Positions 47,354 through 54,012 of a DNA stretch of 64,000 nucleotides are shown here, piece after piece. The notes beneath the pieces are model-generated. The model was not told where the DNA came from, did not search any database, and saw only the letters and a program-made list of their open reading frames with translations. The stretch is from an uncultured Porphyromonadaceae bacterium. Lineage in GTDB: Bacteria > Bacteroidota > Bacteroidia > Bacteroidales > Muribaculaceae. Positions within the stretch are counted from its first letter, which is position 1. Each line of letters starts with the position of its first letter. The DNA lies in the NCBI GenBank assembly GCA_948467675.1, contig CAOKFI010000008.1:1-64000 (forward strand), given 5' to 3'. Made by a program: the position numbers and the translations under genes.

Positions 47354-47764
47354 TTATTGCTTGCGTAAGCGGATCTCGACAAAAAATGCAGTCAGCAGAC
47401 CGAGTCCGCCGCCGAGCAACGAGCATGCGGCATATACCACTTCAATAGCATCATTCAGAATACGATTGTAACCGTTGGCATACATAGATTCAACATTGAT
47501 ATAGCTGATAAGGTACGCTGCCAGCAGACCAAGTCCTAAACCGCATATGATAGCACCCCAGCGCAGACTCACAAAGCGGGAGTCGGACGATCCTGAATTC
47601 ACACCGGGTATCTCACTTGGCATATCGCCGGATTTCGGCAACGACTCTATTTTCTCAATCAGCATGATGCGCTCGCGGCGACACGCATACAACTGAAGTA
47701 TTTTGTAGAAAAAATAACATAATGTGCCGACAATAATCGGACCGACGAGAAAATCCATGTTCAT
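47354..47764 (-). CDS. small membrane protein, DUF6249-like, divergent from the sigma factor
   Basis: The 136-residue protein has an N-terminal helix (about 4-22), a cytoplasmic segment with RRERIMLIEKIESLP, and two further helices (about 70-90 and 108-130). This matches the DUF6249-like proteins that accompany ECF sigma genes in Bacteroidetes. It is transcribed away from the sigma gene from an identical ECF-type promoter (47818-47846), so it is almost certainly a target of that sigma factor. Translation could also begin at the Met two codons on. Biochemical role unknown. Confidence 0.8.
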   Translation of the reverse strand: MNMDFLVGPIIVGTLCYFFYKILQLYACRRERIMLIEKIESLPKSGDMPSEIPGVNSGSSDSRFVSLRWGAIICGLGLGLLAAYLISYINVESMYANGYNRILNDAIEVVYAACSLLGGGLGLLTAFFVEIRLRKQ

Positions 47765-47817: not shown

Positions 47818-47846
47818 TTAGACGCATACCGCACGCTACGGTTACA
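47818..47846 (-). promoter_or_regulatory. ECF-type promoter for the DUF6249-like gene
   Basis: The minus strand reads TGTAACC, 13 bases, TGCGTCTAA. It has the form of an ECF promoter (AAC-type -35 and CGTC -10) and no TAnnTTTG. The same motif with the same spacing faces the other way at 47871-47899. Confidence 0.75.
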
Positions 47847-47870
47847 ATCTTTACAAAAATTTTTATACGG

Positions 47871-47899
47871 TGTAACCAAAACGGCAATCTTGCGTCTAA
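47871..47899 (+). promoter_or_regulatory. ECF-type promoter for the sigma factor gene (autoregulation)
   Basis: TGTAACC, 13 bases and TGCGTCTAA are identical in both elements and spacing to the divergent promoter at 47818-47846. The ATG at 47915 lies 15 bases past the -10, which favours it over the GTG at 47903. Confidence 0.75.
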
Positions 47900-47914
47900 C
47901 CGGTGTATAACGAC

Positions 47915-48463
47915 ATGGAGCATACCGATTCTCATATAATAGCACAAGTACTGGCCGGACATACCCACCACTTCGACACTTTGGTGGAGCGGTATAGCCG
48001 GCAAATATTTGCTCTGGTCGTGAGAATAGCCGACTCGCCTGAAGATGCCGAGGAGATAACACACGATGTATTTATCAAGGCCTTCAAGCACCTGGTTCGC
48101 TTCAACGGCACAAGCTCATTTGCAACATGGCTGTACCGCATAGCCTATAATACCGCCATATCGGCCACACGACGCCACCGACCCGAGATACGGTTTTCCG
48201 ACGAACAGCTTGCAGCCATATCCGACACCAAAATCGACGACGCACTCGACGATCCCACCGAACAGAGAATAGCTCTACTGCACCAGGCGCTGGACATGCT
48301 GCCGCCCGACGACAAAGCCCTCGTAACTCTATATTACATGGAGGATCATCCCATATCGGAAATAGCCTCGATCACAGGACTGACTGTATCGAACGTAAAG
48401 ATCCGCCTTATGCGCACCCGTAAGAAATTATACCTACTAATGACACGACTCGATGAAACATAA
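47915..48463 (+). CDS. ECF RNA polymerase sigma factor
   Basis: The 182-residue sigma-70 family factor has region 2 (HHFDTLVERYSRQIFALVVRI, DAEEITHDVFIKAFKHL, FATWLYRIAYNTAI) and region 4 (LPPDDKALVTLYYMEDHPISEIASITGLTVSNVKIRLMRTRKKL). It lacks regions 1.1 and 3, which defines the ECF group. ATG 47915 is chosen because a GTG at 47903 falls almost at the predicted transcript start. Its own upstream promoter looks self-recognised. The next gene overlaps its end by 11 bases and likely encodes the controlling partner. Confidence 0.95.
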   Translation: MEHTDSHIIAQVLAGHTHHFDTLVERYSRQIFALVVRIADSPEDAEEITHDVFIKAFKHLVRFNGTSSFATWLYRIAYNTAISATRRHRPEIRFSDEQLAAISDTKIDDALDDPTEQRIALLHQALDMLPPDDKALVTLYYMEDHPISEIASITGLTVSNVKIRLMRTRKKLYLLMTRLDET

Positions 48464-48845
48464 TACTGATACACCCCGACACGACTGCAATCTGCGCAAC
48501 GCGCTCAAAGCCATTCCGGAGCCCGAACCACGGCTGCCGTCAAACTTCACATGGCGCACCATGCAGTCAGTCTACACCGTCGACCTACAGCAGAAGCGTC
48601 GGCGCAGACTCGCCATACGCATCGCAGGCATCGCCGCCTGCTCCGTAGCGGCCATAGGCGCGATCGGACTCGGAATCTGGCTGGCAGCACCATCCGTAAC
48701 CGCATCAATGGGAGACCTCGTTGCCGACATACACTCGGCCACAGGATCTACATCGCCGGTACTCTGGGCTACAGCCACATCCGCACTGATACTGATCGGA
48801 GCAGAGCGACTGCTGCACTACACATATTCCCACCGCAAACATTAA
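48453..48845 (+). CDS. small membrane protein, probable anti-sigma factor
   Basis: The 130-residue protein has a charged cytoplasmic N-terminus (1-45, with PEPEPRLPSNFTWRTMQ), two hydrophobic helices (about 54-78 and 100-120) and a short basic tail. Its start overlaps the sigma gene by 11 bases, which implies translational coupling, as with sigma/anti-sigma pairs. No zinc-binding HxxxCxxC motif is present, so it would be a non-ZAS type. Role is inferred from position and topology. Confidence 0.7.
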   Translation: MKHNTDTPRHDCNLRNALKAIPEPEPRLPSNFTWRTMQSVYTVDLQQKRRRRLAIRIAGIAACSVAAIGAIGLGIWLAAPSVTASMGDLVADIHSATGSTSPVLWATATSALILIGAERLLHYTYSHRKH

Positions 48846-48929: not shown

Positions 48930-50129
48930 TTAGTTCTCCGAGAAGATTACTATACGGTTCCAGTTGTTGGTCGAGTAAGGCTGGACATCGCTGCCTTCTG
49001 CATCGATAGTCAGGCGATCCTTGGCGATACCGTATTTGTCGACGAGGATCTGCTGAACAGCCTCGGCACGACGCTTGGAGAGATTCATATTATACTTGGA
49101 AGTACCGGTCTTCTTGTCGGCATAACCCTTGATCACGATCTTGGAGTCGGGATTGGCCTTCATCCACTCGGCGATGTTGTATACATTTACCATTTCGGTA
49201 TCGGTCACACGGGCTGAGTTGATAGTGAAGCGTACTGTCGAGAAGAGCGGAGCTGCTACCTCGGGACAATCCTTTACAGGAGCCACTTCGGGACAGGGAA
49301 GCTGGGCTTCGGCTGCTGCCAGACGGTTGCCGCAGTTGGCCAGCTCGCCACGGAGATCATTGACCTGACCGTTGAGATTGTTGATGTATGCCAGATAAGG
49401 AGTCGGATCGTAGGTCTTGAACGACTTGCCGCCGAAATTGAAAGTAAGACCGCCGATCACACTGGCATTGATATCGACAGGACGGCCGTATGCACAGTTG
49501 TTGAAATTGTCGCCGAAGAACTGAGCGCGTCCCTCAGCAAAGAAGTCGACATATTTGCAAAGACGCAGACGGAGTTGCAGACCGGCAGATACAGGAAGTG
49601 TCCACTGATTGTGCTTCACACCGTGACGTCCGTCGATATTCGACATTTTGGAGTCGAAATCCCATGTAAACGCACCGCCGAGCCCGATGAAAGGAACGAT
49701 ACTGAACACACGGTTGGTGTTTACGCCGCCTATAGAGTTGAACATATCCCACATGAAATCAACATTGGCTGATGCATACTTCGCACGATCCATACCGAAA
49801 TCTTCCCAGTGTATGGCACCATAGAGACCGCTGATACGCCATCCTAAATACGGAGAAATCCACTTGCCTACACCAAGATTATAGGCGGCAGTCATGTGAC
49901 GGGATTTGCGGCCTTCTACCTTGTTGGATTCGACAAAAGGCATGTTGAAACCTGCACCGAGCTGAAGGAACCAGCCGTCGCGCCAGGTGTTGTAGTAATG
50001 CGGAGTGGTGTCGAACTCTGTAAGATTCAGACTCTCTTCTACAACGACAGCCTCCTGTGCTTTAGCATCGTTTGCGGCAAACAGCATTCCGCCACAAGCA
50101 GCAAGTGTCAAAAAGATACTTGTTTTCAT
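48930..50129 (-). CDS. OmpA family outer-membrane protein
   Basis: The 399-residue protein has a signal peptide (1-24) and an N-terminal beta-barrel region (about 45-235, rich in aromatic strands, WFLQLGAGFNMPF and YLGWRISGLYGAIHW). A short coiled linker (LNGQVNDLRGELANC) leads to a C-terminal OmpA domain. That domain has VIKGYADKKTGTSKYNMNLSKRRAEAV, with the Asp and Arg that bind diaminopimelate of peptidoglycan. It is an abundant-type porin anchoring the outer membrane. Two cysteines in the linker (NCGNRLAAAEAQLPC) could form a disulfide. Confidence 0.95.
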   Translation of the reverse strand: MKTSIFLTLAACGGMLFAANDAKAQEAVVVEESLNLTEFDTTPHYYNTWRDGWFLQLGAGFNMPFVESNKVEGRKSRHMTAAYNLGVGKWISPYLGWRISGLYGAIHWEDFGMDRAKYASANVDFMWDMFNSIGGVNTNRVFSIVPFIGLGGAFTWDFDSKMSNIDGRHGVKHNQWTLPVSAGLQLRLRLCKYVDFFAEGRAQFFGDNFNNCAYGRPVDINASVIGGLTFNFGGKSFKTYDPTPYLAYINNLNGQVNDLRGELANCGNRLAAAEAQLPCPEVAPVKDCPEVAAPLFSTVRFTINSARVTDTEMVNVYNIAEWMKANPDSKIVIKGYADKKTGTSKYNMNLSKRRAEAVQQILVDKYGIAKDRLTIDAEGSDVQPYSTNNWNRIVIFSEN

Positions 50130-51350: not shown

Positions 51351-51391
51351 CAAAGAAGTTGCCTATCGGCATCAGCAGCTTTATAAACACA

Positions 51392-52576
51392 ATGACCAAT
51401 CACGTGGAAACACGAAAACGAATAGCCATACTCGGCTCTACCGGTTCCATAGGAACCCAGACCCTCGACATAATAGCCGAGCATCCGGACCGGTTCAAGG
51501 CTGAGATACTTATAGCCGGTTCTAATGTAGAACGGCTTATAGAGCAGTGCGAACGATTCCGTCCGTCCATAGCCATCATAGCCCACGAACGCCACTACCC
51601 TGCCCTTAAAGCCGCTCTGGAGCATACCGGCATAGAAGCGGCAGCCGGACATGAGGCGATACTCGCGGCAATGAGACACCCCGGTGTCGACACTGTGGTC
51701 ACAGCCACAGTGGGCTACAGCGGTCTGGCTCCGACCATAGCCGCAATCGAATCAGGCAAAGAGATCGCACTGGCCAACAAAGAGACCCTTGTCGTGGCAG
51801 GCGAGCTGGTATCACGCCTTCTTCAGACTTCGAAATCACGTATCATACCTGTCGATTCCGAGCATTCAGCCATATACCAGTGTCTGAGCGGAGAGCGCGC
51901 CGAAAGCGTAAAAAAACTGATCATAACAGCATCCGGCGGCCCGTTCCGCACATTCTCCATGCGCGACCTCGAGCAGGTTACTGTCAGAGATGCCCTGCAT
52001 CACCCCAACTGGGCCATGGGCGCTAAAATCACCATCGACTCAGCCACCATGCTCAACAAGGCGTTCGAGATAATCGAGGCGCATTGGCTGTTCGGAGTAG
52101 AGGCTGATCGGATCGAGGCGGTAGTACACCCGCAGTCCATAGTCCATTCCATGGTGGAGTTCATCGACGGAGCCGTCAAAGCCCAGCTCGGACTTCCCGA
52201 CATGCATGTCCCTATCCGCTATGCGCTCGGCGAAGCCTCGCGTCTGCCATCGTCGCTGCCCGGAATGACGCTGACCGACTATGCATCGCTGACATTCGAG
52301 AAGCCCGACACCGACAAGTTCCCGTGTCTGAATCTTGCATATCACGCACTATCGAGAATGGGCAATACCGCATGCGTGATCAACGCCGCCAATGAAGTCG
52401 CAGTGGCGGCATTTCTCAACGAACGCATAAACTTCCTCGACATATACCGCCTCATCACCGAAGCACTCGACAGAATGCCGTTCATCGCCACTCCTACCTA
52501 CGATGACTATGTGGCCACCAACATAGAGGCACGCGCATATACCGAGTCGTTAATCAAATCTCTTGCTGCAAATTAA
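51392..52576 (+). CDS. dxr: 1-deoxy-D-xylulose 5-phosphate reductoisomerase
   Basis: The 394-residue enzyme makes 2-C-methylerythritol 4-phosphate from DXP with NADPH, the second step of the MEP isoprenoid pathway. It has RIAILGSTGSIGTQTLDI at the NADPH site, ALANKETLVVAG, PVDSEHSAIYQCL with metal ligands and HPNWAMGAKITIDSATMLNK. The ATG at 51392 is preferred over a TTG at 51359, since the promoter lies just upstream. The stop overlaps the rseP start by one base (TAATG), so the two are coupled. Confidence 0.98.
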   Translation: MTNHVETRKRIAILGSTGSIGTQTLDIIAEHPDRFKAEILIAGSNVERLIEQCERFRPSIAIIAHERHYPALKAALEHTGIEAAAGHEAILAAMRHPGVDTVVTATVGYSGLAPTIAAIESGKEIALANKETLVVAGELVSRLLQTSKSRIIPVDSEHSAIYQCLSGERAESVKKLIITASGGPFRTFSMRDLEQVTVRDALHHPNWAMGAKITIDSATMLNKAFEIIEAHWLFGVEADRIEAVVHPQSIVHSMVEFIDGAVKAQLGLPDMHVPIRYALGEASRLPSSLPGMTLTDYASLTFEKPDTDKFPCLNLAYHALSRMGNTACVINAANEVAVAAFLNERINFLDIYRLITEALDRMPFIATPTYDDYVATNIEARAYTESLIKSLAAN

Positions 52577-54012
52577 TGGAAATAATTCTCATAAAAGCGG
52601 GTCAGCTCATTGCAGCTCTCGCACTTCTCATAATAGTACACGAGTTCGGACATTTCATATTCGCCCGTATATTCGGAATCAAAGTCGACAAATTCTATCT
52701 GTTCTTCAACCCTAAATTCAGTCTGGTCAGATACAATCCGCGGACAAACAGACTCAGCTTCTTTGTGAAACAGGGCGACGAGGAGACAAAGGCTCCGGAT
52801 AAAGCAGCCGTGACACTCACCGTAGGAAAGCCGCATACAGCTACCGGCAGCGGCAAGACCTCATGGCGCGACACCATCTACGGTATCGGCTGGATACCTC
52901 TCGGTGGATATTGCGCCATCAACGGCATGATCGATGAAACCAACCAGAAACTGAGCGACGACCCGAATCCGTGGGAGTTCCGCACCAAACCTGCATGGCA
53001 GCGGCTGCTCGTAATGACCGGAGGCGTACTGTTCAACTTCATACTCGCCATAATCATATATTCCGGAATAGCATTCTACTGGGGAGAAAAAACCGTCAGA
53101 TTCAAAGATGCCTACGCCGGATTCGAATATGTGCCTGCCGCTTTGAATGCCGGATTCCAGAACGGCGACATTCCGCTTGCAGCCGACGGCACCTGTATAG
53201 ACGGCACCGAGCAGGACGCCGCTTTGCGCCTGGCCGAGGCTAAATGCGTCACTGTACTCCGCAACGGCACCGACACAGTAGCCATCCAGCTGCCTGACGA
53301 TTTTATATTCCGTCTCAATGACGACAAAGGATTCTTTGCATTCCGTCTGCCTGTACAGGTAGCAGAACTCATGCCCGGAGAACCGGCCGCCAAAGCCGGA
53401 CTTGAAGCAGGCGACCGTATCATCGGTGTCGGCGACAGCATCACACCGTCATTCACCGAATTTACCGCAGCGCTCAAGGCTTATGCCGGCAAGACAGTCG
53501 ACCTCACTGTCATACGCGACGGACAAGAGACACGATGCACTGTCACACCCACCGACGGCGGCAAGATAGGAATAGGCCTGTCAAAACTCACCGACGTGTA
53601 TCCTGTGGTCATGACACAGTACTCGCTGCTGGAATCCATACCAAAAGGATGGGAAATAGGCACTACGACACTGGGCAACTATATCAGCTCGATGAAACAT
53701 GTGTTCAGCAAAGAGGGTGCAAAAAGCCTCGGCGGTTTCGGATCGCTCGGAAACATATTTCCGGGACACTGGGACTGGCTGTCGTTCTGGTATGCCGCCG
53801 CTTTTCTGTCGGTAGTGCTTGCTTTCATGAACATCATACCTATACCGGCGCTCGACGGCGGCCATGTCATATTCCTGCTTTACGAGATCGTGGCGCGCCG
53901 CAAACCGAGCGAACAGTTCATGATATACGCACAGTACTGCGGCATGTCATTTCTCCTGCTTCTGCTGCTGTATGCCAATGCCAACGACATATACAGATAC
54001 TTCATCAAGTAA
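52576..54012 (+). CDS. rseP: RIP metalloprotease (site-2 protease family)
   Basis: The 478-residue membrane protease has HEFGH at 22-26 in its first helix and PALDGGH (L426-D427-G428) in its last, which together bind zinc. PDZ-type sequence (MPGEPAAKAGLEAGDRIIGVGD) lies between them, and MTGGVLFNFILAIII is the second helix. It cuts substrates inside the membrane, typically anti-sigma factors. An extra hydrophilic stretch follows the first helix (about 55-100). Coupled translation with dxr is the common Bacteroidetes arrangement. The ECF module 4 kb away is a possible but unproven client. Confidence 0.95.
   Translation: MEIILIKAGQLIAALALLIIVHEFGHFIFARIFGIKVDKFYLFFNPKFSLVRYNPRTNRLSFFVKQGDEETKAPDKAAVTLTVGKPHTATGSGKTSWRDTIYGIGWIPLGGYCAINGMIDETNQKLSDDPNPWEFRTKPAWQRLLVMTGGVLFNFILAIIIYSGIAFYWGEKTVRFKDAYAGFEYVPAALNAGFQNGDIPLAADGTCIDGTEQDAALRLAEAKCVTVLRNGTDTVAIQLPDDFIFRLNDDKGFFAFRLPVQVAELMPGEPAAKAGLEAGDRIIGVGDSITPSFTEFTAALKAYAGKTVDLTVIRDGQETRCTVTPTDGGKIGIGLSKLTDVYPVVMTQYSLLESIPKGWEIGTTTLGNYISSMKHVFSKEGAKSLGGFGSLGNIFPGHWDWLSFWYAAAFLSVVLAFMNIIPIPALDGGHVIFLLYEIVARRKPSEQFMIYAQYCGMSFLLLLLLYANANDIYRYFIK

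Follow-up and report, generated by a model that had tools for sequence, protein, structure and literature searches.

A conserved back-to-back pair of predicted ECF promoters between a Bacteroidales sigma factor gene and a DUF6249 membrane protein gene

Introduction

Bacteroidota dominate the gut and encode dozens of ECF sigma factors, but to our knowledge few of these sigma factors have a known target motif. In Bacillus subtilis, the membrane-stress ECF sigma factor sigma-W (sigma-W/RsiW) is autoregulated and its regulon contains a phage-shock protein and an SppA-type peptidase. Among proteins of solved structure, SigW is also the closest in sequence to the sigma factor described here, and the promoters are of the same AAC/CGT type. 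The Bacteroidales regulon differs from that of sigma-W in its divergent twin promoter and in its use of PspC/LiaF-type and DUF6249 proteins, and, unlike RsiW, the small 130-aa membrane protein encoded next to the sigma factor shows no match to known anti-sigma families in Pfam, NCBIfam or the PDB. The Psp and Lia systems (PMC11237479) offer a partial parallel, seen in relatives, where genes for PspC and LiaI-LiaF-like domains lie behind the motif; control, however, would rest with an ECF sigma factor and not with PspF or LiaRS. The Psp survey contains neither DUF6249 nor ECF and makes no more than a brief mention of a linked sigma factor (PMC11237479).

Two systems from Bacteroidota were also compared. 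EcfO-Reo of Bacteroides and Phocaeicola (PMC9308784, PMC13114119) likewise combines an ECF sigma factor and a membrane-bound anti-sigma factor with a role in envelope stress, but Reo reaches the outer membrane with a beta-barrel, whereas the partner here has 130 amino acids, and an identity of the two systems was rejected on this difference in size. CirY-CirZ of Phocaeicola vulgatus is a self-activating ECF sigma/anti-sigma pair with the Spy chaperone encoded downstream (PMC13114119). In contrast, there is no spy gene in the DNA analysed here or at the orthologous locus of P. vulgatus, and the P. vulgatus module has a DUF6249 gene on its other side; identity with CirYZ was therefore rejected on gene context. 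A description of the regulon was not found in the open literature searched. The same literature yielded nothing joining the PspC domain, ECF, sigma and Bacteroidetes, and DUF6249 appeared only in work on an unrelated subject.

Results

The locus lies in a 64,000-nt stretch of DNA from an uncultured Muribaculaceae bacterium (contig CAOKFI010000008.1, positions 1 to 64,000), which we refer to as the window. Its features are as follows:

47354-47764, minus strand: 136-aa DUF6249 membrane protein with three predicted membrane helices (Pfam PF19762, hydropathy, model)
47818-47846, minus strand: predicted ECF promoter of the DUF6249 gene; exact motif, with a counterpart in most orthologous loci
47818-47826, minus strand: -10 element TGCGTCTAA of the DUF6249-side promoter
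47840-47846, minus strand: -35 element TGTAACC of the DUF6249-side promoter
47847-47870, no strand: A/T-rich 24-bp spacer between both -35 elements; its length varies elsewhere
47871-47899, plus strand: predicted ECF promoter of the sigma operon; exact motif, kept in orthologues
47871-47877, plus strand: -35 element TGTAACC of the sigma-side promoter
47891-47899, plus strand: -10 element TGCGTCTAA of the sigma-side promoter
47915-48463, plus strand: 182-aa ECF sigma factor with regions 2 and 4 (Pfam Sigma70_r2, r4_2)
48453-48845, plus strand: putative membrane-bound anti-sigma factor of 130 aa, whose gene shares 11 bp with the end of the sigma gene, including its stop codon

A first-pass annotation of this DNA had described one motif running in both directions between the ECF sigma gene and the divergent DUF6249-like gene. 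Two exact copies of TGTAACC-N13-TGCGTCTAA indeed stand there. They are the only ones in the window, in which no further copies were found with up to three mismatches (mean of 0.26 in dinucleotide shuffles of the window at the same tolerance). The ECF promoter layout proposed for them was confirmed, as AAC-N16-CGTC is present on both strands, in agreement with an ECF-type promoter (-35 AAC, spacer of 16-17 bases, -10 CGT). The idea of a symmetric 82-base unit held for its length (29+24+29 bp) and for the equal spacing within both arms. The symmetry is, however, limited to the motifs: the sigma gene has a leader of 15 nt and the DUF6249 gene one of 53 nt, and the gap between the arms, 24 bp here, ranges from 14 to 354 bp in other genomes. 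The spacer and flank sequences of the two arms are unrelated, whereas the motif bases are identical.

The full-genome scan suggested at first pass recovered the twin and no other exact copy: in the 2.58 Mb genome (99.9% complete), TGTAACC-N13-TGCGTCTAA occurs twice, back to back, against a chance expectation of about 0.001 for exact 16-base matches. The shorter pattern TGTAACC-N14..16-CGTC gave three matches, namely the twin and one site apparently within a coding region. With two mismatches allowed, there were 8 matches versus 39 for a reversed control pattern, and thus no sign of a wider set of sites at this stringency. A convincing third site was not found in these pattern-matching scans, which may miss degenerate sites.

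Conservation of the arrangement was seen at several taxonomic levels. Among 198 genomes of the same family, close relatives of the sigma factor (E 1e-36 or better) are encoded at eleven loci, including that of the window, and at all eleven the divergent motif pair lies between the sigma and the DUF6249 gene. A scan of named genomes added loci in P. vulgatus, P. coprophilus, Bacteroides bouchesdurhonensis, Sunxiuqinia, Lentimicrobium and Flavobacteriia, the motif spacer being one base longer in the last. Most of the first forty loci have both the divergent pair and the divergent DUF6249 gene. Some loci are without one arm or without the DUF6249 gene, partly through contig ends; overall, the divergent DUF6249 gene is present in 36 of 51 orthologous loci, with some of the others cut by contig ends. 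The intergenic region, whose comparison in related genomes had been proposed as a check, has kept the divergent pair at most of the loci read, across Bacteroidales and in Flavobacteriia.

When 393 Bacteroidales genomes were scanned, at least 150 motif sites were found in 129 genomes, whereas the reversed control pattern gave 64 sites, spread over 58 genomes. Across 16 sigma-bearing genomes, TGTAACC-N15..16-CGTCWWA occurs about twice per genome, usually as the pair, and the control pattern once in total. Among the 150 sites listed, 48 form 24 divergent pairs; none are convergent and one is tandem. Of the solo sites, 80 were fetched, and just 2 of these fall within open reading frames of 150 aa or more, as opposed to 29 of 30 control sites (Fisher p about 4e-23).

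Motif and sigma factor also occur together. A sigma orthologue, defined by matches of at least 187 bits to a profile of orthologous sigma factors, is encoded in 24 of 25 motif-positive genomes (the 25th has a fragment) and in 3 of 30 motif-negative, nearly complete genomes. The corresponding Fisher p of about 3e-11 is a guide only, since the genomes are related and were hand-picked from the scan table, and the profile, which includes sigma genes found via the motif, favours the motif-positive genomes somewhat. In some genomes, for example G376, G401 and G485, the sigma gene and the DUF6249 gene are found on separate contigs and each has its own motif, which indicates that the motif is more than a by-product of common intergenic DNA. 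Conservation, co-occurrence, position before genes and these separated-gene loci all support the twin motifs as promoters of this sigma factor, and we are confident that the 82-bp unit represents two back-to-back promoters read by it. Autoregulation and control of the membrane protein, both predicted in the first-pass annotation, can be strongly inferred from the same four tests, making the DUF6249 gene a predicted target of the adjoining sigma factor.

The consensus of AAC at -35 and CGTC at -10 is common to many ECF sigma factors, and unrelated genes follow some of the TGTAACT...CGTCTAA sites, so that a paralogue could read some of the sites. The motifs might even be ECF promoters whose main reader is another of the cell's ECF sigma factors, the window's genome offering eleven ECF-like matches; close paralogous motifs with a 17-base spacer moreover stand before a second DUF6249-ECF locus in genomes G046, G066 and G083. 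We consider this improbable, as the presence of the motif tracks the orthologue of the window sigma factor, and as the motif stands before this sigma gene phylum-wide. Less probable still is that the inverted arms together form the binding site of a dimeric repressor or activator. A dimeric operator was rejected because the length of the gap is free and single copies exist, which stand in one orientation at fixed distances before separate genes, and AAC-N16-CGTC is in addition the layout of an ECF promoter. Chance similarity or a recent duplication of intergenic DNA, which the mere two copies in this genome would allow, is contradicted by the unrelated spacers and flanks around identical motif bases and by the recurrence of the arrangement in distant families, and we give it next to no weight.

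The sigma factor contains regions 2 and 4 without regions 1 and 3 (PF04542, PF08281; TIGR02937, 105 bits), as is typical of the ECF type. According to the alignment of orthologues, it starts at the ATG at 47915 rather than at the GTG at 47903, which leaves 15 nt between the -10 element and the start codon. The stretch separating motif and start codon has a median length of 8 bases in 18 sigma genes, with 16 of them at 5-10 bases; it is 23 bases for PspC genes and about 41 bases for DUF6249 genes. At ECF promoters, transcription begins shortly after the -10 element, within a few bases. From this and the short median distance to the start codon, the sigma mRNA should be nearly leaderless, a predicted feature that would be conserved across families. 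In Flavobacterium psychrophilum, leaderless mRNAs make up only 5.5% (PMC9723704).

The 130-aa protein is encoded directly after the sigma factor and has the layout of an anti-sigma factor, with a cytoplasmic N-terminus and a membrane helix near residues 57-75. Its structure model contains long helices at residues 34-78 and 102-128, and a homologous small membrane protein gene is found 3' of the sigma gene in most orthologous loci.

The DUF6249 protein matches PF19762 marginally, with 33.1 bits at a cut-off of 33, but relatives encoded at the same position align well with it, and E31-R32 and the helix glycines are kept in the aligned family. Its structure model consists of three long helices (pLDDT 74). 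We considered a PspB/PspC-like fold for this model; a search of the PDB gave no fold match with E up to 0.001, and a sequence match bearing on the fold was not found either.

The motif had further been put forward as a tool to find the regulon. It serves this purpose mainly in relatives, whereas in the window's own genome it leads to the twin only. In a Pfam search of 78 genes behind solo sites, DUF6249 was found 25 times, sigma region 2 18 times and PspC 17 times, and LiaI-LiaF-like TM domains matched 17 members of the set. The remainder includes six outer-membrane efflux proteins (OEP, TolC-like), three MacB/FtsX proteins, two S49 peptidases (SppA type) and single matches to domains such as the ABC ATPase and DUF2807. 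PspC is not encoded in the window's genome, and the motif was absent upstream of Bacteroides and Phocaeicola PspC genes at all five loci that could be read, out of 18 fetched. In Flavobacterium columnare, expression of 21 genes rose when sppA was deleted, and these include tolC, macA and two macB genes as well as genes for an ECF sigma factor and an ABC ATPase (PMC13236525). This set fits the regulon described here, a match in gene content in which the F. columnare ECF sigma factor is not equated with the orthologue of the window sigma factor. Genes for outer-membrane proteins that contain a carboxypeptidase-like regulatory domain follow the motif, or a near copy of it, at three loci in three genera (L154, NC_009614 1539904 in P. 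vulgatus; L176; L062); these proteins are possible lineage-specific members of the regulon.

Discussion

Based on these findings, we propose that the small membrane protein, whose gene overlaps that of the sigma factor, probably keeps the sigma factor at the inner membrane in the resting cell. An envelope signal would free the sigma factor, and RNA polymerase carrying it would read TGTAACC-N15-CGTC(T/A)(A/T)A in both directions, thereby raising the expression of its own operon and of the DUF6249 protein. In many Bacteroidales, the same element would also drive genes for PspC/LiaF-type, TolC-type, MacB/FtsX and SppA proteins, and judging from these targets, the most likely role of the response is to protect the inner membrane and the secretion path, a function in which the DUF6249 protein may share. 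In the lineage of the window, the recognisable regulon would have shrunk to the twin.

DUF6249 is the most constant partner of the sigma factor. One might speculate, although we hold it to be less likely than not, that this sigma factor controls an order- to phylum-wide, so far undescribed membrane-stress regulon in which the DUF6249 protein acts as a feedback part or sensor and not only as an effector. If so, the sigma factor, the putative anti-sigma factor and the DUF6249 protein would form a closed circuit in the window's lineage.

With this, one Bacteroidota ECF sigma factor gains a candidate motif, together with a conserved arrangement of its promoters and a regulon open to direct testing. 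Along with PspC and SppA, the domain of unknown function DUF6249 is thereby linked to membrane stress. The locus may also provide a case of regulon shrinkage, from a wide regulon in some Bacteroidales to the sigma factor's own intergenic region in the lineage of the window, and the predicted near-leaderless sigma mRNA offers a second testable feature shared across families.

A number of related loci and motifs were noted along the way. The second DUF6249-ECF locus in the window's genome (L217, C12:31289-32160) has a different layout, with all genes on one strand in the order of a longer DUF6249 protein (226 aa), an ECF sigma factor and a small membrane protein. Many DUF6249 genes of Muribaculaceae-like relatives adjoin ECF sigma genes in the same way. 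Operons with a long DUF6249 gene in one genus (L157, G083 C3:4118; G046 C322:2896; G066 C151:341) are preceded by a related motif with a 17-base spacer, which suggests that a paralogous sigma factor may read a sister motif, and at L159 (G066 C4:18466) a 17-base-spacer motif precedes a gene for a YccF-like small inner-membrane protein. A looser 17-base-spacer pattern was not enriched over its control in a class-wide scan, in which 6 of 20 fetched sites precede DUF6249-like genes and 1 of 20 a sigma gene. Another sister motif, TGTAACTTTTT...GCGTCTAA, was found in several genera (L040, L048, L054, L055, L057, L058 and L065) before genes for ABC transporter ATPases and small secreted proteins and is probably the target of another ECF sigma factor.

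RseP-type site-2 proteases can cleave anti-sigma factors, and a gene for such a protease, assigned by eye, lies at 52576-54012, after a dxr-like gene (51359-52576). Its position about 4 kb from the sigma operon may be a coincidence. At 48930-50129, a gene for an OmpA-domain outer-membrane protein lies convergent to the sigma operon.
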